Of a stretch of 64,000 nt of DNA, positions 185 through 63,298 are shown one piece after another. A model generated the notes under the pieces. That model was not told the origin of the DNA, made no database searches, and saw only the letters and a program-made list of their open reading frames with translations. This DNA is from Betaproteobacteria bacterium HGW-Betaproteobacteria-6 (lineage in GTDB: Bacteria; Pseudomonadota; Gammaproteobacteria; Burkholderiales; Rhodocyclaceae). Position numbers and translations under genes: made by a program. Numbering within the stretch: the first letter of the stretch is position 1; the number at the start of each line of letters is the position of its first letter. The DNA lies in the NCBI GenBank assembly GCA_002842145.1, contig PHCF01000001.1, forward strand, positions 18,903 to 82,902. The letters are read 5' to 3'.

Positions 185-314
185 CGACGGCAGAAGTGGG
201 AGCAAGGCGCCCAGACTACGGGCCGAGTGTTACAGGAGATTGACCGCGCCGTCATGGTTCTGTAACGCTGAATGCATACCATCGCCGATACCCTCAACCA
301 ACCTTGGCGACCCT

Positions 315-770
315 GTGCTGCGCAATCCGCTATCCCGTCTTGTCGACCGACCGAATGTTTGCCGACCGCGTCAGCGCGGCTTCACCCTGCTTGAACTGCT
401 CGTCGTCATGGTCATCATCGGCCTGCTCGCCGGCTATGTCGGCCCGAAGTATTTTTCGCAGATCGGCAAATCGGAAATCAAGGCGACGCGAGCCCAGATC
501 GATGGTCTGGAAAAGGCGCTCGACCAGTATCGGCTCGATGTCGGCCGCTACCCGAACAGCGAGCAGGGGCTGGCGGCGCTGACCAAGCGCCCGGCTGGCG
601 AAAGCCGCTGGCAGGGGCCCTACCTCAAGAAGGAGGTGCCGGCCGACCCGTGGGGCGCCTCCTATCAGTACGCCCAGCCCGGCGAGCACGGCGATTTCGA
701 CCTTTTCTCGTTCGGCAAGGATGGCAAGGCCGGTGGCGAGGGCGAAAACGCCGACATCACCAACTGGTGA
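315..770 (+). CDS. gspG: Type II secretion major pseudopilin GspG
   Basis: Main subunit of the type II secretion pseudopilus, inserted in the inner membrane and cleaved by prepilin peptidase. The prepilin site G|FTLLELLVVMVIIGLLAG is clear, with Glu at +5 of the mature protein, and is followed by the GspG hallmark YPNSEQGLAAL and a C-terminal DLFSFGKDGKAGGEGENADI calcium-site region. The mature length of about 129 residues fits the family. No ATG is in frame; GTG at 315 gives a 22-residue leader, longer than usual, so a nearby CTG is possible. First gene of a tightly packed operon; gspF follows after 13 bp. Confidence 0.88.
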   Translation: MLRNPLSRLVDRPNVCRPRQRGFTLLELLVVMVIIGLLAGYVGPKYFSQIGKSEIKATRAQIDGLEKALDQYRLDVGRYPNSEQGLAALTKRPAGESRWQGPYLKKEVPADPWGASYQYAQPGEHGDFDLFSFGKDGKAGGEGENADITNW

Positions 771-783
771 ACCGGGCATAGCA

Positions 784-1968: not shown

Positions 1969-1976
1969 GAGCCGCG

Positions 1977-3674
1977 ATGAACTCACCAAGGGATGCCTGT
2001 TTGCCGATGGAGCACGATCTCCTGCTCGGCGAGGCCCGCCGGCTGGCCGCGGCCGGTCGTGGCCTGCCGGCGGTGATGGCCGCGCTGCAGGCCGATTTTG
2101 GCCAGAGCGAAGAGGCGGCCGGCGAGTTGACGGCAATGGCCTTCGGCCTCAGGGCGATCAGCCTGGCTGAGCTTTCCGAACACGCCCTGGTGCTCTCCCT
2201 GGCGCCGTTTGCCGAGTTCATCCGGCGTCAGGCGCTGATCCTCGAGGCCGGCGCGGCATATCTGATCGCCACGCCCAACCCCTTCGACGTTACCGTGCGC
2301 GACTGGCTGGAAGGTCTGGTGCCGCTCGACAAGCCGTTGCACTGGCGCCTGGCACCGCCTTCGGTGCTCACCGCCTTCCTGGCCCGCGAAGAAACCCGGG
2401 TCCGGGCGCTCGACGGCAGCCTGAGCGGCGAGGGCGGCCAGATCGCCATCGGCTCGGTGGCCGAAGATCTTTCGCTGCAACGCATTTCCGAAGACGGTAG
2501 CGCCGTCGTTCGCCTGCTGCGGTCGACCCTGCACGATGGCCTGAAAGCCGGGGCCAGCGACATTCACGTCGAGGCCAACAATCGCGGCCTGGCCATCAAG
2601 TACCGCATCGATGGCGTACTCAATTACGCCGGGGCTATCGATGGCGTCGACACCGCCGAGCAGATGATTTCGCGCGTCAAGGTGCTATCCGAACTCGACA
2701 TCTCGGAACGTCGCGTGCCCCAGGACGGCCGCTTCAAGGTCAGCTGGCAGGGGCGTGAAATCGACATCCGCGTCTCCATCATGCCCAGCATCTGGGGCGA
2801 GGATGCCGTGCTGCGCGTGCTCGACAAGCAGGCGCTGACCGATCATCTGCAGGGCCTGCGTCTCGATGCCATGGGCTTCGACGCCGACATCATGGGGCGC
2901 ATCCGCCGGCTGTCCAGCGAACCCTACGGCATGGTGCTGGTGACCGGCCCGACCGGCAGCGGCAAGACGACGACGCTCTACGCCGCGCTGACCGAGATCA
3001 ACCACGGCGAAGACAAGATCATCACCATCGAAGACCCGGTCGAATACCAGCTTTCGGGCGTCCTGCAGATTCCGGTCAACGAGAAAAAGGGCCTGACATT
3101 CGCCCGCGGCCTGCGCTCCATCCTGCGCCACGACCCGGACAAGATCATGGTCGGCGAAATCCGCGATGCCGAAACGGCGCAGATCGCGGTCCAGGCCGCG
3201 CTGACCGGTCACCTGGTATTCACCACGGTGCACGCCAACAATGTGTTCGACGTCATCGGCCGCTTCCTGCACATGGAGGTCGATCCCTACAACCTGGTCT
3301 CGGCGCTCAATGGCGTCGTCGCCCAACGGCTGATCCGCACGCTGTGTCCATCCTGTCTGCAGCCGGCGACCCCGAGCGCGGAAGAGCTGACGGTCGCCGA
3401 TATCAGCGATGTTGGCGCCGACTGGAAATTCCGCCGCTCGGTCGGCTGCGGTACCTGCCGCGGCACCGGCTATCGCGGCCGCAAGGCCATCGCCGAACTG
3501 CTCGTCCTCAACGACGAAATCCGCGAACTGATCATCAGCCGCGCTCCGATCCGCCAACTCAAGGAGGCGGCCCGCCGTAACGGCACCCGTTCGCTGCGCG
3601 AAAGCGCCCTCGACCTCGTCCGCGACGGGATAACCAGTCTGGAAGAAGCCAATCGTGTCACTTTCGTGGCTTGA
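1977..3674 (+). CDS. gspE: Type II secretion ATPase GspE
   Basis: Hexameric cytoplasmic ATPase powering pseudopilus assembly. Of 565 residues, the N-terminal 160 form the N1/N2-type docking region. The ATPase core carries Walker A GPTGSGKTT near residue 325, the Asp box (EDPVEYQ), Walker B IMVGEIRDAETA and the His box (TGHLVFTTVHAN). A tetracysteine zinc module follows (CPSC then CGTC, about residues 460-495), typical of GspE rather than of most PilB-like relatives. It starts 8 bp after gspF stops and its 3' end overlaps the next gene by 20 bp, which indicates translational coupling. Confidence 0.93.
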   Translation: MNSPRDACLPMEHDLLLGEARRLAAAGRGLPAVMAALQADFGQSEEAAGELTAMAFGLRAISLAELSEHALVLSLAPFAEFIRRQALILEAGAAYLIATPNPFDVTVRDWLEGLVPLDKPLHWRLAPPSVLTAFLAREETRVRALDGSLSGEGGQIAIGSVAEDLSLQRISEDGSAVVRLLRSTLHDGLKAGASDIHVEANNRGLAIKYRIDGVLNYAGAIDGVDTAEQMISRVKVLSELDISERRVPQDGRFKVSWQGREIDIRVSIMPSIWGEDAVLRVLDKQALTDHLQGLRLDAMGFDADIMGRIRRLSSEPYGMVLVTGPTGSGKTTTLYAALTEINHGEDKIITIEDPVEYQLSGVLQIPVNEKKGLTFARGLRSILRHDPDKIMVGEIRDAETAQIAVQAALTGHLVFTTVHANNVFDVIGRFLHMEVDPYNLVSALNGVVAQRLIRTLCPSCLQPATPSAEELTVADISDVGADWKFRRSVGCGTCRGTGYRGRKAIAELLVLNDEIRELIISRAPIRQLKEAARRNGTRSLRESALDLVRDGITSLEEANRVTFVA

Positions 3675-4422
3675 CCGCCTGACCCTCTTCATCCACCCGC
3701 AGCGCGTCGTTCTCGAACGGCAGCCGTGGCGCGGCGCGCGCTCCCGGCAATTGAGCGAGGTGGCGCCGCCGGCTGCCGGTGAAGCCGACTGGCAGCCGGT
3801 GCTGGCCGTCGCCGAAACGCTGCTCAGGAGCACCGGCAAGGGCGCGTCCCTGCATATCGTCGTCGCCGACCATCTGGTCCGCTACGCCTTGCTGCCGTGG
3901 AGCGAGATGCTGACCGGCCAGTCTGCACGCCTCGACATGGCCCGCGCCCTGTTCCGCAATGCGCTGGGCGAACGGGCGGCGACGCTGGATATTGCGCTCG
4001 ACCGTCCGGTCTTCGGCAAGAGCGGCGTTGCCGCCGGTATCGATCGCCAGTTGCTGGACGGCCTGCGCGCCGCCGCCAAGGCCCGGCGCCTGCGCCTGAA
4101 CAGCGTGCAACCGCGCCTGGTCGCCGAACTGGCAGCGCAACAGAAGCAATTGAACGATGGTTGGCTGGCCTGTCTCGACCTTGGCTGGCTGACGCTGGCC
4201 GGCATTCGCGACGGCGAGATTGCCAGCCTGCGCAATCACCGCGCCAGTACCGCCGAGCCGGATATCCAGGCCGGCGAACTGGCCGGCTTGCTGGCCGCCG
4301 AGTCCGCTACGGTCAACGGGAAAAAAGTGCTGATTTCAACTTCTGCCGGCGCTGCCCCGGCGCTGGCTGGCGGCTGGGAAACGACCCTGGTCGCGCCGGT
4401 TGCCGGAGGTGCCCATGCGTGA
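3655..4422 (+). CDS. PilM/GspL-like assembly protein
   Basis: A 255-residue protein starting at GTG inside the end of gspE. It looks like the cytoplasmic actin-like PilM/GspL cytoplasmic domain family: it has no membrane span, position and size match, and the next genes are PilN-, PilO- and PilP-like. Direct motif support is weak; the central part (LDIALDRPVFGKSGVAAG and LACLDLGWLTLAGI) resembles the phosphate-binding hairpins of this fold. In this layout it would recruit GspE to the membrane through the PilN-like partner. A degenerate dispersed repeat lies inside it at 4306-4340. Confidence 0.6.
   Translation: MSLSWLDRLTLFIHPQRVVLERQPWRGARSRQLSEVAPPAAGEADWQPVLAVAETLLRSTGKGASLHIVVADHLVRYALLPWSEMLTGQSARLDMARALFRNALGERAATLDIALDRPVFGKSGVAAGIDRQLLDGLRAAAKARRLRLNSVQPRLVAELAAQQKQLNDGWLACLDLGWLTLAGIRDGEIASLRNHRASTAEPDIQAGELAGLLAAESATVNGKKVLISTSAGAAPALAGGWETTLVAPVAGGAHA
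4306..4340 (+). repeat. Dispersed 38-bp repeat, copy 1 (in coding sequence)
   Basis: GCTACGGTCAA then CGGGAAAAAAG and TGATTTCAA. It lacks one C of the ACCG arm and diverges in the GGCC spacer. Read in frame as ATVNGKKVLISTS in the PilM-like gene. Confidence 0.55.
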
Positions 4423-4942
4423 TTTGGGCCTCGATTTTCAGCCGCGCCGCCCCGGCCTGCTGACGGTTGTCCTGCTTCTCGCCGGCGTGCTGCTTTGCGC
4501 CGACGCCTGGCTGGAGGATCGTGCACTGCTTGGCCAGCAGGAAGACGTCGAAGCCCGGCTGGCCCAGGCCAAGCGCCGGGCCGACCGGGTTGATGCCGGC
4601 CGTCGCGACAGCCGCCCGGAAAATGTCTTTTCGGCCGAAGAGGGCAAGGCCCTGCGCCAGACCATAGCCCTCATCCGCATCGACTGGGAGCAGCTCTACC
4701 GCAGCATCGACGCCGCAACCAGCGAGGACGTCGCACTGCTTGCCATCCGCCCCGGCGCGGCCGGCAAGGCGGTGCAGATTTCCGGCGAGGCGCGCAACAT
4801 GGCGGCAGCGCTGGCCTTCGTCGAAGCCCTGCGCCGCGAACCGCTGGCCAACGCCGTGCTGCTCTCGCACCAGGTCAAGCGCAGCGACCCGCAACAACCC
4901 ATCCTCTTCGAGATCGCCGCAACATGGCTGACCGGTTCCTGA
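4415..4942 (+). CDS. PilN/GspL C-terminal-like membrane protein
   Basis: A 175-residue bitopic protein: short cytoplasmic N-terminus (MRDLGLDFQPRRPG), one membrane span (residues 16-32, LLTVVLLLAGVLLCADAW), a coiled coil, then a periplasmic ferredoxin-like fold region. This is the PilN plan, equivalent to the C-terminal half of GspL. The ATG at 4415 was preferred over an upstream in-frame codon because GGAGGT lies 5 bp before it. It overlaps the preceding gene by 8 bp and the following one by 19 bp. Confidence 0.68.
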   Translation: MRDLGLDFQPRRPGLLTVVLLLAGVLLCADAWLEDRALLGQQEDVEARLAQAKRRADRVDAGRRDSRPENVFSAEEGKALRQTIALIRIDWEQLYRSIDAATSEDVALLAIRPGAAGKAVQISGEARNMAAALAFVEALRREPLANAVLLSHQVKRSDPQQPILFEIAATWLTGS

Positions 4943-5493
4943 ACCTCCTGCTCGCCCGCCTGCGCTTTACCGCGGCCAATCTGCCGGTGCTGCCGCTGAT
5001 CGCCTTCCTGCTGGTTGTGGCCGCCGCGCTGATCCACCTGGTCGTCTTGCCCGGCCGGGAGGCCGCTATCGAGGACGGCGAGCGTCGTCTGGCCCGCCTC
5101 GAACGCAGCGCCCGCCGGGCCGCGCTGGAGCGCCAGACCGAGCGGGTGACGCCGGAAGATACGCGACAGCGCCTGCTCGAGCGTTTCCCGAGCGAGGACC
5201 AGCTCAACGCCGAACTCGGCCGTCTGCTTGACTTGGCGAGCAAGGAAGGCCTGCAAGTGCCAACCGGCGACTATCGTCTGGTGCCGGGCAAGGACGGTCT
5301 TTTCGACCGCTACGTGTTGAACCTGCCGGTCAGCGGCAGCTACCAGACCATACGCCGCTACGTGGCAGCGGTGCGCCGGGAATTCCCCGATCTCGCCGTC
5401 GAGGACATCAGCCTGCGTCGTGAAAGCATCGACAGCGCCGAAGTCGAGGCGCAATTGCGCTTCATCCTGTTCGGCCGGAGGAGCGCGGCATGA
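4924..5493 (+). CDS. PilO/GspM-like membrane protein
   Basis: A 189-residue protein with one membrane span at residues 22-42 (PLIAFLLVVAAALIHLVVLP), then a coiled coil rich in Arg and Glu (residues 50-85), then a periplasmic domain ending in a beta-strand-like tail. The order matches PilO and GspM, which pair with PilN/GspL in the inner-membrane platform. Start and stop codons overlap both neighbours, so the operon is probably translated as one coupled set. Confidence 0.68.
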   Translation: MADRFLNLLLARLRFTAANLPVLPLIAFLLVVAAALIHLVVLPGREAAIEDGERRLARLERSARRAALERQTERVTPEDTRQRLLERFPSEDQLNAELGRLLDLASKEGLQVPTGDYRLVPGKDGLFDRYVLNLPVSGSYQTIRRYVAAVRREFPDLAVEDISLRRESIDSAEVEAQLRFILFGRRSAA

Positions 5494-6029
5494 CGCCGAA
5501 GCAACGCTGGATCATCCTCGGCAGCCTGCTCTCGGCCACCCTTGTTGCGGGCTATCTGGTTGACGATGAAGTCGCGCCAGAAACGAGCAAGCGCAAGGGT
5601 TCCGCCGCCCGCCAGTCGGCACCTTCATCGCCGGCCGACAGTCGGCGGGCCGGGCCGAGGGAGCGGACGACCGGGCTGGCCGTCGCCCCACTCAGTTTTC
5701 CCGAGCCGGCGCCGCTTGATGAGAACCAGATAGCGGCTGGCGAGACGCGGATCGACCCGTTCCGCAACAAGAACTGGTATGTCGCGCCGCCTCCGCCGCC
5801 AGCACCCAGGCCGACAGCGCCGCCGCTGCCTTTCAAATACCTGGGAAAGCTCAAGGAAGACGGGGAGATTCGCGTCTTCCTGAGCCATCAGGGCAAACAC
5901 ATCATTGCCAGGGTCGGCGATGTGATCAACGGCAGCTACAGCGTCGAGGAAATTTCCGGCGGGCAGATGACCTTGCTCTACCAGCCGCTCAAGGAAATCC
6001 AGATGCTGGCCATCGGCGCTGACAAGTAA
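5490..6029 (+). CDS. GspC/PilP-like periplasmic connector
   Basis: A 179-residue protein with an N-terminal membrane anchor (WIILGSLLSATLVAGYLV), a Pro-rich linker (PPPPPAPRPTAPPLP near residues 95-110) and a C-terminal small beta domain (FKYLGKLKEDGEIRVFLSHQ... VGDVINGSYSVEEI). That C-terminal pattern is the homology-region/PilP fold which contacts the secretin. No secretin gene follows; the next gene is an unrelated esterase beyond a 270-bp gap with hairpins, so the secretin must be elsewhere or absent. Confidence 0.7.
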   Translation: MTPKQRWIILGSLLSATLVAGYLVDDEVAPETSKRKGSAARQSAPSSPADSRRAGPRERTTGLAVAPLSFPEPAPLDENQIAAGETRIDPFRNKNWYVAPPPPPAPRPTAPPLPFKYLGKLKEDGEIRVFLSHQGKHIIARVGDVINGSYSVEEISGGQMTLLYQPLKEIQMLAIGADK

Positions 6030-6166: not shown

Positions 6167-6251
6167 ATTTCCGTGACGATGAATTGAAACAATTGGCGTC
6201 AATGATCGTTCTGACGTGACGAGGTTCATCCGGCGTTTTTTGGGTGGCACG

Positions 6252-6286
6252 TTGTTACGGTCAACCGGCAATTTTCCCCAAAATCA
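6252..6286 (+). repeat. Dispersed 38-bp repeat, copy 2 (mRNA leader)
   Basis: TTGTTACGGTCAACCGG followed by CAATTTTCCCCAAAATCA. It ends directly before the ribosome site (AGGAG) of the esterase gene, so it should lie in the transcribed leader. Confidence 0.8.
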
Positions 6287-6300
6287 GAAGGAGACAAAAC

Positions 6301-11912: not shown

Positions 11913-11936
11913 ACTCGTTTGATGAGGAATCCTGCG

Positions 11937-12665
11937 GTGAACGCAAAAAAAACCCCGTTTTTCGCCAGCCTCCTGCTGGCGCTATCGCTTTCCGGCCATG
12001 TCGTGGCTAACGAAGCCCGCCACGATCATGCCGCGCCGGTCGCCAAAATGACGCCTTCCCAGCAAGTCGTCCCGGTGCCCGTTGCCGCCCGCTTCGATCT
12101 CAAGGTGAACCAGACGCAAACCGACTGGTACCTCTGGCGCGAAGCCGACAGCATCGAAACGGCCAGTGCCGCGGTCGGCCAGAACGATATCTGGCGCCGT
12201 GTCAGAGGCAACGAATACAACTACCGTCGCGTTTTTCATAACGACCAGCGGGTGGTCGACTACACCTCCGGTGAAATCAAGACTCGCCACGCCGAACCTG
12301 ATTGGTCAAAACTTGCCTCGGTAATCTCGCCGCAACTGCTTCGGGAACTCAAGCGCGGCGCCAGCAAGACGTTGTTCGGCGAGAAGGCCGTGCGCTACAC
12401 CGGCAAGCTTGGCGGCCAGACTGTCGACCTGTGGTGGCTGGAAAAGTCGCAGCTCCCGGCCAGTCTGCAAATGGCCAGAACCGGTCAGCGCATGACCCTT
12501 ACCCTCAAGGAGTTGCACAGCACGGCGCCTGCTGCCTGGCCGCGCGCTACTGAAGAGCGAATCGCTGATTACGGGCTGATCGATGCCGCTGATTTTGGCG
12601 ACATGGAAAGCGATCCGTTTGTGGCTCGTATCCTGCGCCAGGATGGTCACAGTCATTCGCATTGA
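11937..12665 (+). CDS. Unknown exported protein with His-rich tail
   Basis: A 242-residue protein of no recognised family. GTG at 11937 was chosen because GAGGAA lies 7 bp upstream; an in-frame ATG at 11922 has no such site. It has a signal peptide (FFASLLLALSLSGHVVANEA). The mature part starts with RHDHAAP and ends GHSHSH, giving His clusters at both ends that could bind metal. The middle has a beta-rich pattern (TDWYLWREADSIE ... NDIWRRVRGNEYNYRRVF). It follows phoA on the same strand and overlaps the next ORF, so it may act with the phosphatases; this is only suggested by position. Confidence 0.6.
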   Translation: MNAKKTPFFASLLLALSLSGHVVANEARHDHAAPVAKMTPSQQVVPVPVAARFDLKVNQTQTDWYLWREADSIETASAAVGQNDIWRRVRGNEYNYRRVFHNDQRVVDYTSGEIKTRHAEPDWSKLASVISPQLLRELKRGASKTLFGEKAVRYTGKLGGQTVDLWWLEKSQLPASLQMARTGQRMTLTLKELHSTAPAAWPRATEERIADYGLIDAADFGDMESDPFVARILRQDGHSHSH

Positions 12666-12990: not shown

Positions 12991-13029
12991 ATTTCAAAAT
13001 TGGCCATTTTTTCCGGTTGACCGTAGGTA
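12991..13029 (-). repeat. Dispersed 38-bp repeat, copy 3 (intergenic, at integrase remnant end)
   Basis: In repeat orientation: CTACGGTCAACCGG, AAAAAAT, GGCCAATTTTGAAAT. Near-perfect copy whose core directly joins the truncated end of the integron integrase remnant. Confidence 0.9.
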
Positions 13030-13032
13030 ATG

Positions 13033-22076: not shown

Positions 22077-23468
22077 ATGCCTGATTCCCTGATCGCTCGC
22101 CTCGTTGCGCTGGTCGGACCGGCCCAGGTGCTGACCGAGCCGGCCGACATGGCGCCCTTCGTCACCGACTGGCGCGGCCGTTATCGCGGCGCCGCGCAAT
22201 GCGTCGTTCGTCCCGGCAATAGCACCGAGGTGGCGGCGGTCGTCAAAGCCTGTGCCGAAGCCGGTGTGGCCATCGTCCCGCAGGGCGGCAACACCAGCCT
22301 GTGCGGCGCGGCAACGCCGGACGACTCAGGCGGCGCGGTGGTCGTCAGTTTGAGCCGTCTCAATCGCATTCTTACGGTCGACCGGGAAAACAGCACGATT
22401 TCAGTCGAGGCCGGCTGTACGCTGGCCGCTGTCCAGGAGGCTGCGCGCGCCGCCGACCGGCTCTTTCCGCTGGCCCTGGCGTCGGAAGGGACGTGCCAGA
22501 TCGGTGGCAACCTGTCGACCAATGCGGGGGGGGTCCAGGTTCTGCGTTATGGCAACACCCGCGAACTGACGCTCGGCCTTGAGGTGGTCCTGCCTAACGG
22601 CGACATCTGGAACGGCCTGCGCGGTCTGCGCAAGGACAACACCGGCTACGATCTCAAACAGCTATTTATCGGCGCCGAAGGCACGCTGGGCATCATCACT
22701 GGCGCCGTGCTCAAGCTTTTTCCGCTGCCCAAAAGGCTGCTTACCTGCTGGCTGAACGTCGTTTCGCCGGCTGCTGCGGTCGACCTGCTGAATTCGGCAA
22801 AAACCGATTTTGACGCGCAACTGACGGCCTTCGAGCTGGTTTCGGAAACGGCGCTCGGGCTGGTCCTCGAGCACATTCCCGATACGATGCGGCCGTGCGA
22901 ACCCTCGCCATGGTACGTCCTGGCCGAGTTTTCAGATGCCGAGCCGGCCGCCGTCGAAGCCTGGCTGGCCGGGCGAATCGATAGCGGAGACGTCTCCGAC
23001 GGCGTCGTCGCCCAGTCGGAAACCCAGGCCAAAAAGCTGTGGGCGCTGCGCGAGAGCATTTCGGAGGCGCAGAAGATCGAGGGCATCAGCATCAAGCACG
23101 ACATTTCAGTGCCGGTGTCGCGTATTCCCGAATTTCTGGCGACGGCGGATGCGGCGCTGGCCAGCGCGTTTCCCGGTATCCGCGTGGTTGCCTTTGGCCA
23201 TGTCGGCGACGGCAATCTGCATTACAACCTGTCGCAGGCCGATGCCCACGATAACGCCGCTTTCCTCGCCAGCGAGTCCGAGGTGCATCGTATCGTTCAT
23301 GATGCGGTGCACGCCCTGAACGGTTCGATTTCGGCAGAACACGGCATCGGCCAGCTCAAGCGCGAGGAGATCCTGCGTTACAAGAGCGCTGTCGACGTGG
23401 CGCTCATGCATTCGCTCAAGCAGGCGCTCGATCCGCGCGGCCTGATGAATCCCGGCAAGGTGCTTTGA
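22077..23468 (+). CDS. FAD-linked D-2-hydroxyacid dehydrogenase (GlcD/DLD-type)
   Basis: A 463-residue flavoprotein of the GlcD/D-lactate/D-2-hydroxyglutarate dehydrogenase family. The FAD-binding domain shows CVVRPGNSTEVAAVVK, VPQGGNTSLCGAA, GGNLSTNAGGVQVLRYGNTRE and GAEGTLGIIT. The C-terminal cap includes AFGHVGDGNLHYN and SISAEHGIGQLKR, which hold the catalytic His and metal ligands. No iron-sulfur partner gene is adjacent, so it may be a single-subunit enzyme. Its stop touches, with no gap, the stop of the convergent kinase gene. Confidence 0.85.
   Translation: MPDSLIARLVALVGPAQVLTEPADMAPFVTDWRGRYRGAAQCVVRPGNSTEVAAVVKACAEAGVAIVPQGGNTSLCGAATPDDSGGAVVVSLSRLNRILTVDRENSTISVEAGCTLAAVQEAARAADRLFPLALASEGTCQIGGNLSTNAGGVQVLRYGNTRELTLGLEVVLPNGDIWNGLRGLRKDNTGYDLKQLFIGAEGTLGIITGAVLKLFPLPKRLLTCWLNVVSPAAAVDLLNSAKTDFDAQLTAFELVSETALGLVLEHIPDTMRPCEPSPWYVLAEFSDAEPAAVEAWLAGRIDSGDVSDGVVAQSETQAKKLWALRESISEAQKIEGISIKHDISVPVSRIPEFLATADAALASAFPGIRVVAFGHVGDGNLHYNLSQADAHDNAAFLASESEVHRIVHDAVHALNGSISAEHGIGQLKREEILRYKSAVDVALMHSLKQALDPRGLMNPGKVL
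22371..22412 (+). repeat. Dispersed 38-bp repeat, copy 4 (in coding sequence)
   Basis: CTTACGGTCGACCGGG, AAAACAG, then CACGATTTCAG. Read in frame as LTVDRENSTISVE in the FAD oxidase. The core has G for A at one central base. Confidence 0.6.
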
Positions 23469-25690: not shown

Positions 25691-26031
25691 TTCAGTTTTT
25701 CCGCGTAGTTTTCCGGCGCGAAGCCGACGATGAGCTGGCTGCCGGTGTCGAGTACCGGACGTTTGATCAGGCTCGGGTATTGCGCCATCAATTTGAGGGC
25801 TTTTTGCTCGTCGACCGCGGAACGTTCCTCGTCGCTGAGCTTCTTCCACATCAGGCCGCGCGTGTTGAGCAGCTTTTCCCAGCCGGCTCGGGCGTTCCAG
25901 TCGGGCAGATTGGCCTCGGCGACGCCGGCCTTCTTGTAGTCGATGAATTCGTAGGCGACACCATTTTCAGTCAGCCAGTTCATGGCTTTCTTCATGGTGT
26001 CGCAGTTCTTGATGCCGTAAACCTTGGTCAT
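25687..26031 (-). CDS. ArsC/Spx-family protein YffB
   Basis: A 114-residue thioredoxin-fold protein of the ArsC/YffB family: VYGIKNCDTMKKAMNWL has the single Cys of the family and Lys three residues later; later conserved parts are ALKLMAQYPSLIKRPVLD and GFAPENY. These proteins are glutathione-dependent thiol reductases of uncertain substrate; arsenate activity is not implied. ATG 26031 gives a family-like length. It overlaps hslO by 4 bp and joins two other genes on this strand. Confidence 0.87.
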   Translation of the reverse strand: MTKVYGIKNCDTMKKAMNWLTENGVAYEFIDYKKAGVAEANLPDWNARAGWEKLLNTRGLMWKKLSDEERSAVDEQKALKLMAQYPSLIKRPVLDTGSQLIVGFAPENYAEKLK

Positions 26032-26081: not shown

Positions 26082-27419
26082 CTATCTGAACTCGAAGGCC
26101 TCCTGGTGGAACGCGGCGCGCGACAGGCCGCTGGCCTGTAGTGCCTGGCCCAAAGACCTGCCCCAGGCAGCCGGGCCGCAGAACCAGACGGTGCTGTCAG
26201 GCCGGAGCGTAGAGGCGACTTCCTGCGGCGTAAGCGGGCCGGTGTTGTCGGTCTGGCGGCGGTGCAGGCGGACGCCGGCGGCGTCGCAGAGGGCTTCCAG
26301 ATGTTCGGGGAAATCGCCGGGAGCGGCGTTTGGCGTGCAGTAGAACAGATCGGCAGTAGCTTTCGTTGGCGCCGGGGCGGCTGCCAGTTGCTCGAGGCGG
26401 GCGAGGAAGGGCGTAATGCCAATGCCGCCGGCGACCCAGACCTGATGAGCCGCATTCCCACGGTCAACCGGAATTTTTGGCGAAAAATCAAATGCGCCGT
26501 AGGGGCCTTCGAGGGTGATCGTCTGGCCGGCCTCGATCAAGGCGGGGAGCTGGGCGGTGAAATCACCGAGCGCCTTGATGGCCAGGGTCAGCGTGCCTTC
26601 CTGCGCGTTCCAGGCCGAGGCGATGGTGAACGGGTGGGCACCTTCGCCGCGCGAGCCGAAGTTGGCGAAGAGGAATTGTCCGGCCTTGTGACCGGGCCAG
26701 TTCTTTTCGGGACGGCAGACCATTTCAAGCAATTTGCCGTCGTGCTGGCTGATTGAAACGATCTGGGCCGAGTGCTGGCGCTTGCGGCCGATGCGATTCG
26801 ATAGCGAAAGCAGGGCGGGCACAAGGCCGGCAGCGGCGAGCGCGGCGGTCAGCCAGCCGAGCGGACTTTGCCAGAAAGTCGTCGGCATGAGCATCAGGCC
26901 GTGGAAGGCGCCGGCCAGGAAAACGGCGCCAAAGGCCTTGTGCACCCAGCGGAAATAGCGGTAGGGAATACGTTTGACGAGGGCGACGACGACCAGGGCG
27001 AGCAGGATGTACCCGGCCCATTCGCCGACATCCTTGGCCAGATCGATCCACATGTCGGGTTCGCCACGTGGTCCGCGCGGGCCGCGTGGACCGGTGATCA
27101 GGCCGGCCTTGGACAGATTCTTGGGCAGCCATTCAATCATCCAGTGGGTGAAGACGAGCAAACCGGCGCCGATGCCGATGTTCTTGTGCAGGCGGTAAAG
27201 TTTATCGAGGCCGCCGAAGCGTTGTTCGAGCCAGGGCGAACGCGTGGCGAGCAGGATGCCGGCGCTCATCCACCACAGGGCGAGCAGTCCGGACAGGATG
27301 ATCAGTGGCTTGCGCCAAGCCCAAGGGCCCTCAGGGTTGGCGGCAAGTACGTCGGGCAGCGCGAAAACTCCCCACAGAGTGAGGGGGATGAGGGCCAGGA
27401 AAAGCAGGGGGCGTTTCAT
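26082..27419 (-). CDS. Ferric reductase-like membrane oxidoreductase
   Basis: About 445 residues: five or six membrane spans with His pairs (LYRLHKNIGIGAG, FTHWMIEWLP, FRWVHKAFGAVF, AGAFHGLML) suited to bis-heme binding, followed by a ferredoxin-NADP reductase module. The latter has the FAD motif HPFTIASAWN and NAD motif WVAGGIGITPFLARL, plus terminal AFHQEAFEFR. Electron transfer across the membrane from NAD(P)H is inferred. A short loop GPRGPRGPRGEP lies between the second and third spans. Start choice between 27419 and 27449 is uncertain; neither has a clear ribosome site. Confidence 0.78.
   Translation of the reverse strand: MKRPLLFLALIPLTLWGVFALPDVLAANPEGPWAWRKPLIILSGLLALWWMSAGILLATRSPWLEQRFGGLDKLYRLHKNIGIGAGLLVFTHWMIEWLPKNLSKAGLITGPRGPRGPRGEPDMWIDLAKDVGEWAGYILLALVVVALVKRIPYRYFRWVHKAFGAVFLAGAFHGLMLMPTTFWQSPLGWLTAALAAAGLVPALLSLSNRIGRKRQHSAQIVSISQHDGKLLEMVCRPEKNWPGHKAGQFLFANFGSRGEGAHPFTIASAWNAQEGTLTLAIKALGDFTAQLPALIEAGQTITLEGPYGAFDFSPKIPVDRGNAAHQVWVAGGIGITPFLARLEQLAAAPAPTKATADLFYCTPNAAPGDFPEHLEALCDAAGVRLHRRQTDNTGPLTPQEVASTLRPDSTVWFCGPAAWGRSLGQALQASGLSRAAFHQEAFEFR
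26457..26494 (+). repeat. Dispersed 38-bp repeat, copy 5 (antisense in coding sequence)
   Basis: CCACGGTCAACCGGAATTT then TTGGCGAAAAATCAAAT. It runs opposite to the ferric-reductase gene and reads FDFSPKIPVDRGN there; the A/T parts are partly altered. Confidence 0.75.
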
Positions 27420-27517: not shown

Positions 27518-27557
27518 CTTTTCAATTTTGGCCTTTATTTCCGGTTGACCGTGGCAA
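27518..27557 (-). repeat. Dispersed 38-bp repeat, copy 6 (after tex stop)
   Basis: Begins immediately next to the tex stop codon: TTGCCACGGTCAACCGG, AAATAAA, GGCCAAAATTGAAA on the tex strand. Nearly complete match to the consensus. Confidence 0.92.
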
Positions 27558-29879
27558 TCATTTGCGCAGCTTGGCAAAGGCCGAGGCCATTGCATTGCCG
27601 GCCGGAGCCGGGCCGGTGCTGCGCTGCTGGGGGTGAACCGGCGCATTGCCACGGCTGCTCGGGGCGTTGTCGTGGCGCTTGGCCTGGCTCGGCTCGTCGC
27701 CCATGCGCATGGTCAGCGCGATGCGCTGGCGCTGCAGGTCGACTTCGAGCACCTTGACCTTGACGATCTGGCCGGCCTTGACCACCGTGTGCGGGTCCTT
27801 GACGAAGGTGTTGGAGAGCGCCGAGACGTGCACCAGGCCGTCCTGATGCACGCCGATATCGACGAAGGCACCGAAGGCGGCGACGTTGGTCACGACGCCT
27901 TCGAGGATCATGCCCGGGCGCAGGTCGCCAACCTTTTCAACGCCGTCGGCGAAGGTCGCCGTCTTGAACTCGGGGCGCGGGTCGCGGCCGGGTTTTTCCA
28001 GTTCCCTGAAAATGTCCTGCACGGTCGGCAGGCCGAAGCGTTCGTCGGTGTATTTCGACGGGTTGATGCCCTTGAGGGCGCGGCTGTCGCCGAGGATTTC
28101 CTTGATCGACTTGTTGAGGTCGACAATGATTTTCTCGACCACCGGGTAGGCTTCCGGGTGCACCGACGAGCTGTCGAGCGGGTTGTCGCCGTTCGGCACG
28201 CGCAGGAAGCCGGCCGCCTGTTCGAAGGTCTTGTCGCCGAGGCGCGGTACCTTTTTCAGTTCGTCGCGCGAACGGAAGGCACCGTTGGCATCGCGGTAGC
28301 TGACGATGTTGGCGGCGAGCCCGGCGGTCAGGCCCGAAATGCGGGCGAGGAGCGGCACAGAGGCGGTATTGACGTCGACACCGACGGCATTGACGCAGTC
28401 TTCAACCACGGCATCGAGATTGCGTGCCAGTTTGGTCTGCGAGACGTCGTGCTGATATTGGCCGACGCCAATGGATTTCGGGTCGATCTTGACCAGTTCG
28501 GCCAGCGGATCCTGCAGACGGCGGGCAATGGAGACGGCGCCGCGGATCGAGACGTCGAGATCGGGGAATTCCTTGGCCGCGAATTCGGAGGCGGAATAGA
28601 CCGAGGCACCGGCTTCGGAGACGACAATCTTCTGCAACCGGGCTTCCGGATAGCGCTTCATGACGTCCTGGACCAGCTTGTCGGTTTCCCGGCTGGCCGT
28701 GCCGTTGCCGATGGCGACCAGGCTGACCTGGTGCTTGGCGGCCAGGCGGCTGATGGTGGCGATTGAGCCGTCCCAGTCGCAGCGCGGCTCATGCGGGTAG
28801 ATGGTGGCGTGGTCGAGCATCTTGCCGGTGGCGTCGACGATGGCGATCTTGCAGCCGGTGCGGATGCCCGGATCGATGCCCATGGTGACGTGCTGGCCGG
28901 CCGGGGCGGCGAGCAGCAGGTCTTTGAGGTTGCGCCCGAAGACGCGGATGGCTTCTTCCTCGGCGCGCTCGCGCAACTCGTTCATGAGTTCGAGCTCGAG
29001 ATGGGTGTAGACCTTGACCTTCCAGGTCCAGCGCACGGTGTCGGCCAGCCATTTGTCGGCCGGGCGGCCCTGCGACTTGATGCCGAAACGGACGGCGATA
29101 CGCTGTTCGCAGGGGTTCTGCGTGCCGGGTTTGACGGCCTCCGGGTCGAGTTCGGAGTCGAGGACCAGCGCGACCTGCAGCATGCCTTCGTTGCGGCCGC
29201 GGAGCAGGGCCAGGGCACGGTGCGAGGGCATCGTGGCAATAGGTTCGGCGAAGTCGAACCAGTCGCGGAACTTGGCGCCTTCGGTTTCCTTGCCTTCGAC
29301 GACGGTCGAGCGGACATGGCCGTGCTCGCTGAGGTAGGCGCGCAGGCCGCCGAGCAGTTCGGCATCTTCGGCGAATTTTTCCATGAGGATCTGGCGGGCG
29401 CCGTCGAGCACGGACTTGGCGTCGGCAAAACCGGCGTCGGCGTTGATGAACTTTTCAGCTTCGTCGTCCGGCGTCAGGTTCGGGTCTTCGAGCAGACCGA
29501 GGGCGAGCGGCTCAATGCCGGCTTCGCGGGCGATCTGCGCCTTGGTGCGGCGCTTTTGCTTGTACGGCAGGTAGAGGTCTTCGAGGCGCTGCTTCGTTTC
29601 GGCATCGCTGATCTCGGCCTTGAGCTCCGGCGTCAGCTTGCCTTGTTCCTCGATGCTGGCGAGGATGGCGGTGCGGCGTTCTTCGAGGTCGCGCAGGTAG
29701 GTCAGGCGTTCTTCGAGGTTGCGCAGTTGGGTGTCGTCGAGGCCGTCGGTCGCTTCCTTGCGGTAGCGCGAGATGAAGGGCACGGTGGCGCCTTCGTCAA
29801 GGAGGGCGATGGCGGCGTTGACCTGGGCCGGGCGGACGCCGAGTTCGGCGGCAATGCGGTGTTCAATGGGTGGCAGCAT
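27558..29879 (-). CDS. tex: RNA-binding protein Tex
   Basis: A 773-residue Tex protein of the S1 RNA-binding family. N-terminal helical region with [22 protein letters not shown]; YqgF-like middle ([35 protein letters not shown]); helix-hairpin-helix region ([19 protein letters not shown]); C-terminal S1 domain ([35 protein letters not shown]) and a basic Gln/Pro-rich tail. It probably affects transcription or RNA handling. It is divergent from fliW with a 118-bp shared promoter gap. Confidence 0.95.
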
Positions 29880-31748: not shown

Positions 31749-31787
31749 ATTTCAATTTTGGCCATTTTTTCGGGTTGACCGTAGCAA
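31749..31787 (-). repeat. Dispersed 38-bp repeat, copy 7 (leader of gamma carbonic anhydrase)
   Basis: TTGCTACGGTCAACCC, GAAAAAAT, GGCCAAAATTGAAAT in gene direction, ending about 9 bp before the ribosome site. G-for-C change at the end of the core. Confidence 0.9.
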
Positions 31788-31837
31788 CGCCGGCGAACGG
31801 CGAGATCGGCCAATTTTACCTGCCCGGCGGCGGCAAA

Positions 31838-33272: not shown

Positions 33273-33312
33273 GATTTCAAAATGAGCGATTTTTCGGCGT
33301 TGACCGTGGCAC
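33273..33312 (-). repeat. Dispersed 38-bp repeat, copy 8 (over a start codon)
   Basis: Overlaps the start of the MazG-like gene: ATTTCAAAATG, AGCG, ATTTTTCGGCG, TTGACCGTGGCA on the plus strand. The gene's ATG lies inside the repeat's A/T arm. Confidence 0.8.
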
Positions 33313-33638
33313 TGCGGGCGTTTCGCGATGCCCGCAACTGGCAACAGTTTCACACCCTGCGCAATCTGATCACCTCGCTCAACCTCGAAGCGGCTGAGTT
33401 GCTCGAATTGACGCAATGGAAAAGCGACGCTGAAGTCGAGGCGCTGCCAGCCGATCCGCAAGCTGGCGAGGCCCTGCGCGACGAATGCGCCGACATCCTG
33501 CTCTACCTGCTGCTCATTGCCGATACAGCGGGCATCGATCTCGCCGCTGCCGCCCGCGCCAAACTGGCCAAAAACGCCGAGAAATACCCGGTGGACAAAG
33601 CCTACGGTTCGCGGGCCAAATACACCGAGCTAGGTTGA
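33282..33638 (+). CDS. MazG-like nucleotide pyrophosphohydrolase
   Basis: A 118-residue all-alpha NTP pyrophosphatase of the MazG/RS21-C6 type: metal-binding EAAELLE-type helix near residue 36 (SLNLEAAELLELTQW) and DECADILLYLLLIAD near residue 69 with EExxD-like spacing. These enzymes remove non-canonical nucleotides. The start codon sits within a dispersed repeat copy, and the 3' end overlaps the convergent rlmJ by 9 bp. Confidence 0.84.
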   Translation: MSDFSALTVALRAFRDARNWQQFHTLRNLITSLNLEAAELLELTQWKSDAEVEALPADPQAGEALRDECADILLYLLLIADTAGIDLAAAARAKLAKNAEKYPVDKAYGSRAKYTELG

Positions 33639-37410: not shown

Positions 37411-38142
37411 ATGACCCTTTCCCCGCTGACGGCCGGCAGCCTGCGCCGCGCTCTGGCTGAAGGCTGGCGTATCGCCGGCGCTACGCGCGGTATCAGTACC
37501 GGCTATGCCCTCATTTTTTCGCTCGGCGGCCTGGCGATCATGGGCGGTCTGCTGGCCCAAGGCTGGACGCCATTCATCATCGCTGCGGCCGGCGCTTTCA
37601 TGCTGGTTGGCCCGGTCGCGCTGGCCGGATTTTTCGGCATCGCCGGGGCGTATGAGGCTGGTGAGCCAGTCGGGCCGGGCAGCATCGTCAACGGCTTTTC
37701 CCGGGCATCCCGGGCCCTCTTGGCGCTGTCGCTGGTCTGCGCGCTGCTCTTCATGATCTTCGTCACCGACGCGGCGATTCTCTACGCCTACATGGTCGGG
37801 GCGACGCCGGTATGGCTCGACAGGTTGCTGCCGGCTTCGGCCAATATACTGTCGTTCGTGCGCTGGGCCGGCGTTTCCGGCCTGGTCGTCGCGCTGCTGC
37901 TTTACTGCGTCGCGGCCTTTTCCGTGCCGTTGCTTTGCGAGCGCCGGGCCGGGCTGGTCGAGGCTGTCGTGCTGAGTGTTCGCGTCGTTTTCACCAATTT
38001 CCTGCCGTCCATTTTTTGGGCTTTTTTCCTGTCGACCGTAACAATCGGCAGCGTCCTGCTCTTGCCGCTCCTGCCGCTGACCCTGCCGTGGCTGGCCTAC
38101 GCCAGCCGGGCGGTGTACCGGCAAGCGCTGCCCGTTTCCTGA
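37411..38142 (+). CDS. DUF2189/BPSS1780-like membrane protein
   Basis: A 243-residue protein with six hydrophobic spans; the N-terminal [26 protein letters not shown] resembles the start of DUF2189-type integral proteins. Function unknown. ATG 37411 is used because the preceding in-frame ATG at 37396 adds only a few residues. A dispersed repeat copy lies inside its last part (38010-38046), where it reads [16 protein letters not shown]. Confidence 0.7.
38010..38046 (-). repeat. Dispersed 38-bp repeat, copy 9 (in coding sequence)
   Basis: Plus-strand CCATTTTTTGGGCTTTTTT then CCTGTCGACCGTAACAATC. The core is CGGTCGACAGG in repeat orientation, with two changes. Confidence 0.65.
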
Positions 38143-40896: not shown

Positions 40897-41481
40897 TTAC
40901 TCCTTGGTGATGGATGTTGCGGAGAGCGGCGAAGAGCGGCTTTGCCACTCGCTTTCGGTAAAACGCGGAGTGATGTGGCGGGAGCAGTTCCAGTCGAAAG
41001 CGGCGATCCGGATGAGCATGATGCGCTCGACGTTGCTCCCGGGGAATTTCATTTTTGCCAATAATTTCGGGTTGACCGTAGCAAGCTCGACCATCTCGAC
41101 GTGACCCAATAATTTCAGGCGGCGCCGGTTCGGGTAATCCATCAGGATCAGCGCCGCTCGGTCATTTTTGGTCAGGTTGCCGACGCTGACGTACTGGCGG
41201 TTGCCGGATAAATCGGCAAAGGCCAGCGTGGTTGGGTCTAGTACCTGGAGAAACCCTGCCTGTCCGCCGCGATGCTGGACATGCGGCCAGCCGCTTTCGC
41301 CGACGGTGGCCAGGTAAAAACTGTCGCGGGCAGCAACGAATTCGCACTCGCGCGGGCCGAGTTCGACGACCGGTGTTTCGCTGATCTCTTCCAGTCCTTC
41401 ACCGAGGTCGCGTCCGCCATGGAGGCGCTGGCTGGCCCGGACGCTGGGCGTGTAGGCGATGGTGGCAAAGTGGCGGGACAC
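40897..41481 (-). CDS. Pyridoxamine-phosphate-oxidase-like flavin protein
   Basis: A 194-residue split-barrel protein. GTG 41481 was chosen because AAAGGAAAC lies 8 bp upstream; an open frame runs further but without coding character. FYLATVGESGWPHVQHRGG and LAFADLSGNRQYVSVGNL match FMN-binding oxidases. The C-terminal part (HITPRFTESEW) is typical of this family's general stress branch. It contains a dispersed repeat copy. It is divergent from the lysR gene, the usual layout for a LysR-controlled target. Confidence 0.78.
   Translation of the reverse strand: MSRHFATIAYTPSVRASQRLHGGRDLGEGLEEISETPVVELGPRECEFVAARDSFYLATVGESGWPHVQHRGGQAGFLQVLDPTTLAFADLSGNRQYVSVGNLTKNDRAALILMDYPNRRRLKLLGHVEMVELATVNPKLLAKMKFPGSNVERIMLIRIAAFDWNCSRHITPRFTESEWQSRSSPLSATSITKE
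41046..41084 (-). repeat. Dispersed 38-bp repeat, copy 10 (in coding sequence)
   Basis: Gene-strand reading: TTGCTACGGTCAACCC, GAAATTATT, GGCAAAAATGAAAT; in frame LATVNPKLLAKMKF in the PNPOx-like gene. Confidence 0.85.
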
Positions 41482-41592: not shown

Positions 41593-42531
41593 ATGGATAA
41601 ATTGCATGCCATGACCACCTTCGTGCGCATCGTCGAGGCCGGCAGTCTGACGGCCGCCGCCGATCGCCTGGGAACTTCGCCAACCTCGGTGGTGCGCAGC
41701 CTGTCTGGGCTCGAACGGGCGCTCGGGGTTCGCCTGCTCAATCGCACGACGCGACGCATGGCCTTGACCGACGAGGGGCGCGACTATTTCGAGCGTTGCC
41801 GGCATCTGCTGCAGGATGTCGAGGAGGCTGAAGCGGCCCTGCTCGCCCGTCAGGTCAAGCCGGCCGGACGCCTGGTCATCACCGCGCCGGTGATGTTCGG
41901 GCGCTTACATGTCGGTCCGGCCGTCACCGATTTTCTTGCCGCGTATCCCGAGGTGCGCATCGAGTTGTTGCTACTTGATCGCGTCGTCGATCTGATTCAT
42001 GAAGGCATAGACCTCGCCGTACGCATTGGTACGCTGCCTGAATCTTCGCTGGTCGCCGTGCCGCTCGGTACGACCGGCCGGGTTGTCTGTGCCAGCCCGG
42101 AATACCTGGCATTCCACGGTCAACCGGAAAATCCGGCCGAATTGCAAAAGCACCGGGCGATCCGAATTACCGGATCGAGTCTTGAACCGGACTGGTCGTT
42201 TCAGGAAAACGGGCGCCCGCTACGGGTGACAATGCCCGAGAACCTGAGCACCAATCACATCGATTTCGCCATCGACGCCTGCCTGAAAGGGCTTGGTTGC
42301 GGGCGATTTCTTGCCTACCAGGTACGCGAGCAACTGGCGGCCGGCAAGCTGGTTCGTTTGCTGAGCGCCTACGAGCTGCCACCGGAGCCGGTCAATTTCG
42401 CCTATCCCCACGCCCGTCTTTTATCGTCCCGGGTTCGCGCCTTTATTGATTGGGCGGCCCCGCAGCTCCGGGAAAAACTCATCGAAGCCCGCGATGTGGG
42501 CGACAGCGCCGTGGCGCGCTGGCAGAAATAA
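41593..42531 (+). CDS. LysR-family regulator with MoaE-like tail
   Basis: A 312-residue LTTR: winged helix at residues 1-60 (HAMTTFVRIVEAGSLTAAADR, LGTSPTSVVRSLSGLERALG) and a substrate-binding domain (VRIELLLLDRVVDLIHEGIDLAVRIG). It groups with AaeR/DsdC-like regulators that control one divergent gene. The last 15 residues (IEARDVGDSAVARWQK) do not belong to LTTR proteins and match the end of MoaE. A dispersed repeat copy lies in the middle of the sensor domain. Confidence 0.88.
   Translation: MDKLHAMTTFVRIVEAGSLTAAADRLGTSPTSVVRSLSGLERALGVRLLNRTTRRMALTDEGRDYFERCRHLLQDVEEAEAALLARQVKPAGRLVITAPVMFGRLHVGPAVTDFLAAYPEVRIELLLLDRVVDLIHEGIDLAVRIGTLPESSLVAVPLGTTGRVVCASPEYLAFHGQPENPAELQKHRAIRITGSSLEPDWSFQENGRPLRVTMPENLSTNHIDFAIDACLKGLGCGRFLAYQVREQLAAGKLVRLLSAYELPPEPVNFAYPHARLLSSRVRAFIDWAAPQLREKLIEARDVGDSAVARWQK
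42113..42149 (+). repeat. Dispersed 38-bp repeat, copy 11 (in coding sequence)
   Basis: TTCCACGGTCAACCGG, AAAATCC, GGCCGAATTGCAAA; reads FHGQPENPAELQK in the LysR regulator. Confidence 0.75.
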
Positions 42532-47452: not shown

Positions 47453-48232
47453 ATGTCGGATGACCTGAAAGCATGGCAAGCCAGGCGCCATCTCGAACTG
47501 GCCGGGGCAGAAAGCTGGCTGGGCATGCGCGGGCTGTTCTGGCTGGAGCCGGGGCTGAACAGCGTCGGCAGCGGCGCAGGATCGGTTGTTCTTTTGCCCG
47601 GCGGGCCGGCGCATCTTGGCGATCTGTTCTGGCAGGGTGGAAAGGTCGTTTGGCAGTCGGTGGATGGTGAAACGCTCGAACTGCAGACCGATGTCGCCGG
47701 CCAGCCGAGCGTGGTCGATTTTCAAAATTGGTCGTTTTTTCCGGTTGACCGTGAGAGTCGCATTGCTGTGCGTCTGCGCGACCGTAACTGGGCGGCGAGC
47801 CAGTCGTTCGACGGCCTGGACTATTTCGACTTCGACCCGGCGTGGCAGATCGAGGCCGAATGGCAGGCGCTGTCGCCGCCGCTGAAAATGGAAGTGCCCA
47901 ATGTCAGCGGCGATCTGAAAATGGTTGAAGTCGGCCATCAGGCCGTGTTTGAAGTCGCCGGGCAGACGGTGGTGCTGTTACCCATGGCGGTCAACGACAA
48001 GGAGATTTTCTTCGTTTTTCGAGACCGGACGAGCGGCAAGGAGACTTACGGCGCGGGCCGTTTTCTCAAGGCTGCTCCTGCGGTCAACGGGAAAATTTGC
48101 CTGAATTTCAATTTTTCCTTCAATCCGCCGTGCGCCTTCACGCCCTTTGCGACCTGCCCGTTGCCGCCGCCGGAAAACTGGTTGCCCTTTGCCGTTCCGG
48201 CCGGGGAGCGCAAGTGGGTCAAGCCTGGCTGA
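47453..48232 (+). CDS. DUF1684 family protein
   Basis: A 259-residue protein: WLGMRGLFWLEPGLNSVGSG near the N-terminus, and the C-terminal DRTSGKETYGAGRFL, then CLNFNFSFNPPCAFTPFATCPLPPPEN with the Cys/Pro-rich motif of DUF1684. No signal peptide. Function unknown. Two dispersed repeat copies, in opposite orientation, lie inside this gene at 47718 and 48077; the second falls on the conserved C-terminal motif. Confidence 0.85.
   Translation: MSDDLKAWQARRHLELAGAESWLGMRGLFWLEPGLNSVGSGAGSVVLLPGGPAHLGDLFWQGGKVVWQSVDGETLELQTDVAGQPSVVDFQNWSFFPVDRESRIAVRLRDRNWAASQSFDGLDYFDFDPAWQIEAEWQALSPPLKMEVPNVSGDLKMVEVGHQAVFEVAGQTVVLLPMAVNDKEIFFVFRDRTSGKETYGAGRFLKAAPAVNGKICLNFNFSFNPPCAFTPFATCPLPPPENWLPFAVPAGERKWVKPG
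47718..47755 (-). repeat. Dispersed 38-bp repeat, copy 12 (in coding sequence)
   Basis: Plus strand GATTTTCAAAATTGGTCG, TTTTTT, CCGGTTGACCGTGAG; reads DFQNWSFFPVDRES in the DUF1684 gene. Confidence 0.88.
48077..48113 (+). repeat. Dispersed 38-bp repeat, copy 13 (in coding sequence)
   Basis: CCTGCGGTCAACGGG, AAAATTT, GCCTGAATTTCAATTTT; inverted relative to copy 12 and 320 bp away. Protein reading VNGKICLNFNFSF is a conserved DUF1684 segment, so part of the match may be protein-driven. Confidence 0.55.
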
Positions 48233-52101: not shown

Positions 52102-52111
52102 TTGGGCGATT

Positions 52112-52148
52112 CCTACGGTCGACCGGGAAAAACGGCCAAAATCGGAAT
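52112..52148 (+). repeat. Dispersed 38-bp repeat, copy 14 (between converging genes)
   Basis: CCTACGGTCGACCGGG, AAAAAC, GGCCAAAATCGGAATT; fills the space between the Glu dehydrogenase stop and the fusion gene stop. Confidence 0.92.
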
Positions 52149-57234: not shown

Positions 57235-57256
57235 GGCGCCCGGTCGATTTTGAGCT

Positions 57257-57293
57257 TGCTACGGTCAACCGGGAAAAAAGGCCAAAATCGAAA
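57257..57293 (+). repeat. Dispersed 38-bp repeat, copy 15 (intergenic, near-consensus)
   Basis: TTGCTACGGTCAACCGGG, AAAAAA, GGCCAAAATCGAAA. Only one base from the majority sequence. Lies 22 bp after the hflX stop. Confidence 0.97.
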
Positions 57294-57363
57294 CCGACCA
57301 TCGCGCCCGGCCAGCCACATTTAGAAAGTTCTGATGCTGAACGAGGGGGGCAAACATGAGGCG

Positions 57364-61467: not shown

Positions 61468-61468
61468 G

Positions 61469-61506
61469 TTGCTACGGTCAACCCAAAAAAATCCCCAAAA
61501 TTGAAA
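61469..61506 (+). repeat. Dispersed 38-bp repeat, copy 16 (at a broken kinase gene)
   Basis: TTGCTACGGTCAACCC, AAAAAAATCC, CCAAAATTGAAA. Directly borders the kinase fragment. Confidence 0.92.
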
Positions 61507-61558
61507 TGCCAAAACCCCGGCCAGACAGCGCCGGAGCTTATGTTTGTAGCTGGTTTGT

Positions 61559-62887: not shown

Positions 62888-63229
62888 GGAAGACTCCCTG
62901 GCAAGCGGCATGTTCGTTTTCGTGGATGTTGGCGGCGGTTGCCTTGCCGGCCATCACCTTGCAGGCCCAGCTGGTGTGGGAAATGATGAATGGCATGCGG
63001 GGCATCGGACGTAGTTGGGATAGAAATATCAGTAGTTGCTTATCAAGACTCGTGCCAACCGTTATCTCAAAATAATTTACTTTTTGATCAATGAGATGGG
63101 AAGGTGGCAGCATTCGGTCGCGGGGGCGTTTCGGCTGCTTATTGGGGTTTCGTTGCCGAATTTGGCGGAGGGGCGCCATTATTGGCAGGGAAGCGATGCT
63201 AGTCCCGGGCGCCCTTTGTCAATCTGCCA

Positions 63230-63267
63230 TTGCTACGGTCAACCGGGAAAAAGGCCAAAAATGGAAA
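63230..63267 (+). repeat. Dispersed 38-bp repeat, copy 17 (intergenic)
   Basis: TTGCTACGGTCAACCGGG, AAAAA, GGCCAAAAATGGAAA; close to consensus. Confidence 0.95.
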
Positions 63268-63298
63268 CCGGGCAGCGCACGGTTAGGGCGCCCTGGAC

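Follow-up and report, generated by a model that had tools for sequence, protein, structure and literature searches.

The question raised by this locus is what kind of signal a short sequence represents when it recurs, inside as well as between genes, throughout 64,000 nucleotides of bacterial DNA (the whole stretch analysed here, referred to as the window). Scanning the window with a trained profile of 40 columns, we recovered all 17 copies listed in the original prediction and three more, at 11934(+), 22776(+) and 25818(-), giving 20 in total (Table 1). The ten plus and seven minus orientations assigned to the 17 were borne out by the same scan, and 11 of the 20 copies fall within called genes, so the earlier statement that about half are genic was correct. 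Copy number, which had been proposed for comparison with chance, far exceeds it: allowing up to three mismatches, CTACGGTCAACCGGGAAA (an 18-mer of the repeat) matches the window 14 times compared with 0.07 expected from shuffles, and 441 kb of the same genome contain 130 profile sites of at least 14 bits compared with one in the reversed sequence. This is a density of ~295 sites per Mb, or ~1,200 sites genome-wide if the sample is representative; the source genome is a 4.3-Mb draft in 226 contigs, with profile statistics taken from the 441 kb and pattern counts from the whole genome. Over the whole genome, exact matches to ACGGTCAACCSG number 225 forward and 228 reverse (reversed pattern, 3 and 2); when one mismatch is tolerated these counts rise to 380 and 370 (reversed-pattern control, 64 and 70). 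The 453 exact copies of this 12-mer (control, 5), among 750 that include the singly mismatched (control, 134), outnumber the 297 singly mismatched ones, of which ~168 remain after control subtraction. Such an excess of perfect over singly mismatched copies is described as a peculiarity of uptake sequences (PMC1626085).

The repeat has the form ATTGCTACGGTCAACCGG-RAAAAA-N-GGCC-AAAATTGAAAT, and the profile consensus reads A t T g C T A C G G T C A A C c G g a AAAAA n ggcc AAAATT g AAat. Near-invariant in the source genome are CGGT and the AC at core positions +7/+8 (the A of ACGGT being 0). On this numbering the A/T tracts occupy +13 to +17, +23 to +28 and +30 to +32, all on one side of the core, the first two lying 3' of it and ~10 nt (about one helical turn) apart. 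Three tracts were found (AAAAA, AAAATT and GAAA), where two had been described. The dyad CGGT-CA-ACCG that had been read in the core is present in the source genome, though with a weak right half (G in 71%) that the other dialects, discussed below, lack. The repeat is asymmetric, its copies vary at many flanking positions, and no common element extends past 40 nt. An Rfam search gave no match to the repeat, the one match being a tRNA.

Table 1. Copies of the repeat in the window, as located by the 40-column profile
Copy	Position	Strand	Context	Score (bits)	Relatives
1	4303..4342	+	inside gene 3655-4422, adjoining type II secretion system genes	32.9	
2	6251..6290	+	intergenic	42.3	
extra, weak (11934)	11928..11967	+	intergenic	25.0	
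3	12991..13030	-	convergent gene ends	51.6	
4	22368..22407	+	within FAD-linked oxidase gene		retained in G085, G071 and G098; gap-free erosion in G089 and G036
extra (22776)	22770..22809	+	FAD-linked oxidase gene, as copy 4	27.0	
extra (25818)	25785..25824	-	within Hsp33 gene region	25.8	
5	26454..26493	+	within ferric-reductase-like gene, antisense	49.6	
6	27519..27558	-	intergenic, directly upstream of tex (tex on -)	57.8	identical in G085
7	31749..31788	-	intergenic	58.6	
8	33274..33313	-	intergenic (gene calls of this analysis)	43.3	
9	38006..38045	-	inside gene	45.2	
10	41046..41085	-	within PNPOx-type gene	51.2	
11	42110..42149	+	within LysR regulator gene	41.3	
12	47719..47758	-	within DUF1684 gene, antisense	47.8	
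13	48074..48113	+	DUF1684 gene of copy 12, sense	40.7	
14	52109..52148	+	end of glutamate dehydrogenase gene, abutting convergent gene end	55.2	
15 (copy first noted)	57255..57294	+	past GTPase gene (HflX-type)	55.0	
16	61468..61507	+	in or at start of phosphonate-binding/HisKA gene, antisense	52.5	
17	63229..63268	+	intergenic	51.6	

Placement was counted on the 130 sites in 441 kb, with genes called by a simple codon-usage caller (91% coding). In-gene sites number 86 (66%, compared with 91% expected) and intergenic sites 44 (34%, in 9% of the sequence), a 3.6-fold excess, indicating a preference for non-coding DNA alongside many coding copies. Sites are plentiful in convergent gaps (14 of the 44, in 23% of intergenic bases) and few in divergent, promoter ones (4 of the 44, in 25%), and in-gene copies show a mild bias towards gene ends (35% within 150 bp, 25% expected). 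Enrichment at gene ends and between convergent genes is what transcription terminators, or other signals acting at the RNA level, might produce. However, two thirds of the sites lie in genes and in both orientations, in keeping with the earlier argument that coding copies speak against a plain terminator; a single close inverted pair occurs among the 130 sites, the dyad is not conserved across dialects, and Rfam offers no match, leaving an RNA-level signal scarcely credible. The in-gene copies comprise 48 sense and 38 antisense and occupy all six reading frames, five substantially and the sixth once (several had been claimed), the sense T-V-N/D frame being the commonest (37 of 86).

The short motif is over-represented with equal use of the two strands genome-wide, and orientations are mixed locally. 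In several of the sampled stretches copies are slightly in excess on the G-rich strand, as might be seen with a polar guide of the Chi or KOPS kind that follows the direction of replication. However, local orientation in the sampled stretches is ~60:40, with no strong skew or co-orientation, which contradicts a polar replication or segregation site, one of the functions originally put forward. Both Chi and KOPS are also much shorter than the repeat, and dialects and absence from half of the genus would be unexpected for sites of RecBCD or FtsK; we give a guide function practically no credence. Copies are spaced more evenly than a random scatter would be (CV 0.79 in 441 kb).

The window was aligned with its orthologous counterparts in three relatives that are motif-rich and two that are motif-poor. 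Across 86 site comparisons between motif-rich pairs, sites are 91.0% identical compared with 85.6% for their flanks, and the site exceeds the flank in 71; the core is retained in 93%, and two comparisons are gapped. Presence at orthologous sites was a point that the original prediction had singled out for checking. Copy 8 is conserved above its flanks in motif-rich relatives, and copy 9 is 95-97% identical in relatives whose flanks are at 82-88%. In motif-poor relatives (39 comparisons) sites are 58.8% identical compared with 76.6% for flanks and the core is lost in 38, a comparison biased downwards in that sites were picked by motif presence in one genome. The conservation and erosion comparisons share sites and are not independent, and Wilcoxon values overstate significance because of this choice of sites and their recurrence among pairs.

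Coding sites are mostly ungapped in the motif-poor relatives; those at 22369, 38006 and 47719 align gap-free with a decayed motif in both G089 and G036, so it is point mutation, not insertion, that creates and erases coding copies. A mobile short repeat (REP/BIME or MITE-like), as had also been suggested, would fit the high copy number and the few intergenic copies missing in relatives, and some intergenic copies are gapped in the motif-poor genomes. Against this, coding copies that are conserved or eroded by substitution argue that the repeat is not a mobile element, and the variable flanking positions, with no shared element beyond 40 nt, point the same way. REP/BIME elements resemble the repeat in being dispersed, tens of nucleotides long and present in many copies, but they are palindromic, extragenic and inserted, whereas the repeat is asymmetric, largely intragenic and substitution-driven. 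Mobility is therefore very unlikely.

Analysis of over-represented words and trained profiles revealed species dialects, all built on CGGTCRAC with an AAWT tract following it at a distance of 15 nt. The clade of the window (the source genome, G000, with G002, G085 and G071) uses ACGGTCAACCGG with both tracts; G031 and G087 use CGCGGTCGAC and similar forms with essentially the second tract only; and the dialect of G032 is ACGGTCGAC. The first A/T tract is weak or absent in G031, G032 and G087. CGGT is invariant, and the base before it is A in the clade of the window and G in G031 and G087. The G064 profile is of low information and has drifted, and the profile density for this genome is unusable.

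Counts of CGGTCRAC-N15-AAWW in 77 congeneric species are bimodal: 41 genomes carry 71-278 copies per Mb (motif-rich), 36 carry 1-35 (motif-poor), and none lies between. CTSoil_121, a public, unclassified MAG (JAGTRT01 contigs) that is evidently G012, to judge by its matching counts, is a motif-rich congener with 480 copies; it was the only hit when named genomes were scanned with a stringent 36-mer pattern. The same pattern reaches at most 16 copies per genome in 287 genomes from other genera of the family, and the 12-mer at most eight per genome in 24 genomes from other families of the order. On a tree of the clpB region of 66 congeners, motif-rich status changes 14 times, at least nine of them forced by well-supported branches; the tree rests on this one gene region, and recombination may blur it. 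Low-density genomes bearing remnants (9-35 copies per Mb) are often sister to motif-rich ones (G069 and G063 with G087 and G032; G083 with G008). Presence of the motif is patchy on the tree, and the remnant genomes beside motif-rich sisters suggest repeated loss, with gain as the alternative.

The repeat is scarce in foreign DNA. A second, plasmid-like replicon in G064 has 4 copies in 140 kb compared with 29.7 expected (P ~5e-9), a 34-kb element within comEC of G002 has none compared with 4.8 expected (P 0.008), and a 27-column form of the motif had no match in 2.9 million viral contigs. At one end of the G002 insert (G002:C33:109608-143311; GC 51.5%, compared with 60%) is the gene for a large serine recombinase; the insert also encodes a tyrosine integrase, a B-family DNA polymerase of viral type and a protein resembling D5/DUF5906 helicases. 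In G089 (G089:C1:2218693-2251157) comEC is broken at about the same codon as in G002, by a stretch of 32-34 kb in the two species, which looks like an element that integrates into the competence channel gene and so disables it.

Depletion from an accessory replicon also bears on the possibility that the repeat is bound by a chromosome-organising protein (nucleoid-associated, or SlmA-, Noc- or MatP-like) that some species encode and others have lost. An architectural protein would be well served by a core with phased A/T tracts next to it, and by copies that are spread and conserved. However, such depletion, the unusually strong consensus and the hundreds of coding copies would not be expected for a housekeeping protein; the motif is asymmetric, and no regional clustering typical of Ter- or origin-specific sites was seen in the window and the sampled stretches. 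We consider an organising-protein site improbable.

It is instead highly likely, in our view, that the repeat is an uptake signal sequence (USS) read by the type IV pilus competence machinery, which was the leading guess of the original prediction and is supported by sequence hallmarks matching the Pasteurellaceae pattern: architecture, density, strong consensus, dialects, preference for gene ends, avoidance of foreign replicons and repeated loss. Extended Pasteurellaceae USSs are of the Hin type, AAAGTGCGGTCAATTTT, and the Apl type, AACAAGCGGTCAAATTT (PMC12616744); in the H. influenzae USS the core is followed immediately on its 3' side by the first A/T segment, and the centre of the second is 12 nt beyond (PMC1626085). 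Like these, the repeat has hundreds to thousands of copies on both strands, a strong consensus and a core followed by two A/T tracts (PMC1626085, PMC12616744), as well as clade dialects, evolution by substitution, a non-coding preference and decay after loss, and CGGTCAA is common to both. Unlike them, it is found in proteobacteria distant from the Pasteurellaceae and is absent from the 67 other genera sampled in the host family; its first tract starts ~9 nt past CGGT, not 2, and its second ~19 nt; the bases to the left of CGGTC differ, and the clade of the window has the third tract, GAAA. Where Pasteurellaceae have the inner core GCGGT, the G before the invariant CGGT is matched in G031 and G087 and replaced by A in the clade of the window. 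Because the tract spacing is not that of the Hin type, we describe the repeat as probably working like a USS and do not file it as a Pasteurellaceae USS itself. Similarity to the Neisseriaceae DUS (ATGCCGTCTGAA and its dialects; PMC3630211) extends to abundance, dialect formation, clade consistency and a type IV pilus lineage, but the DUS is a continuous 10-13-mer with a CTG core and no A/T tracts, and its sequence is unrelated to the repeat, the consensus of which has no such continuous CTG core.

If the repeat is a USS, naturally competent congeners would bind motif-bearing free DNA by way of a receptor that the type IV pilus machinery displays at the cell surface, with the CGGTCRAC core conferring specificity. 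The phased A/T tracts 3' of the core would aid bending or kinking of the stiff duplex at the secretin pore, and ComEA and ComEC would then draw the DNA in. The motif would build up across the core genome by point mutation and biased uptake, since motif-bearing DNA would be preferentially taken up and recombined in; lineages would drift to their own dialects, and the motif would decay once specificity or competence was lost.

Uptake sequences have been placed in two families whose members are mostly host-associated, the Pasteurellaceae and Neisseriaceae (PMC7811141, PMC13192263), and to our knowledge uptake tags have so far been described only in these Haemophilus and Neisseria families. A search of the open-access literature, with subscription papers and preprints outside its range, found no report of an uptake sequence in Rhodocyclales, in agreement with the earlier remark that no described element of this form was known there. 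The repeat is a probable uptake sequence in a new lineage, the third after Pasteurellaceae and Neisseriaceae, apparently environmental and comprising at least 77 sequenced species, with dialects and with repeated presence or absence between close relatives. We put forward only tentatively, and think rather doubtful, the further reading that this third, undescribed lineage, in a large environmental genus, owes its Pasteurellaceae-like core to descent from, or transfer with, one type of receptor; were it true, USS recognition would be older or more mobile than thought. Convergence is the alternative source of the shared core. The genus may serve as a natural experiment on the identity of the receptor, on whether tags are by-products of uptake bias or serve species recognition, and on how they are lost, and the repeat would be a marker by which competence of environmental bacteria could be read from their genomes.

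Consistent with uptake by these bacteria, the machinery (type IV pilus, ComEA, ComEC and DprA) is present genus-wide: ComEC was found in 72, ComEA above the cut-off in 67 and DprA in 76 of 77 congeners, and type IV pilin genes, including minor pilins, in all 14 congeners examined. In the complete, motif-rich genome G098 no protein passes the family cut-off for ComEA, the match being confined to the HHH region of a long protein (tex). Competence genes are as frequent in motif-poor as in motif-rich species and so leave the difference between the two unexplained; with ComEC, ComEA and DprA near universal in both, co-occurrence did not single out a receptor. In the source genome itself, comEC (G000:C145:64238-66486) carries a frameshift, with ~24 residues missing between its halves, reflecting either recent decay or a draft error; the strain may thus now lack transformability, or the draft assembly may be wrong. 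We considered and rejected the idea that the motif was lost because comEC had been lost, since the gene is disrupted in motif-rich (G000, G002, G008) and motif-poor (G018, G036, G089) genomes alike, showing no clear link.

Known or predicted receptors of uptake sequences are ComP and, by prediction, ComN/PpdA. The minor pilins FimU and PilE, the obvious receptor class, are strongly divergent here and track neither the motif nor its dialect. A four-pilin cluster resembling comNOPQ proved to be the type II secretion pseudopilins GspG-J. The window itself carries, at 57-6026, a type II secretion or type IV pilus-like operon (GspG, GspF, GspE and PilN-like genes). Two types of type IV minor-pilin operon are distributed patchily in the genus (G000, G064 and G087 as opposed to G061 and G098), and different operons occur even in close relatives with the same repeat dialect; this patchiness suggests that the operons may have been replaced. 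Separately, GTTTCACGTGAAAC-type words, which resemble ParB binding sites (parS), are over-represented near contig starts in G002 and G031 (loci L060-L072).
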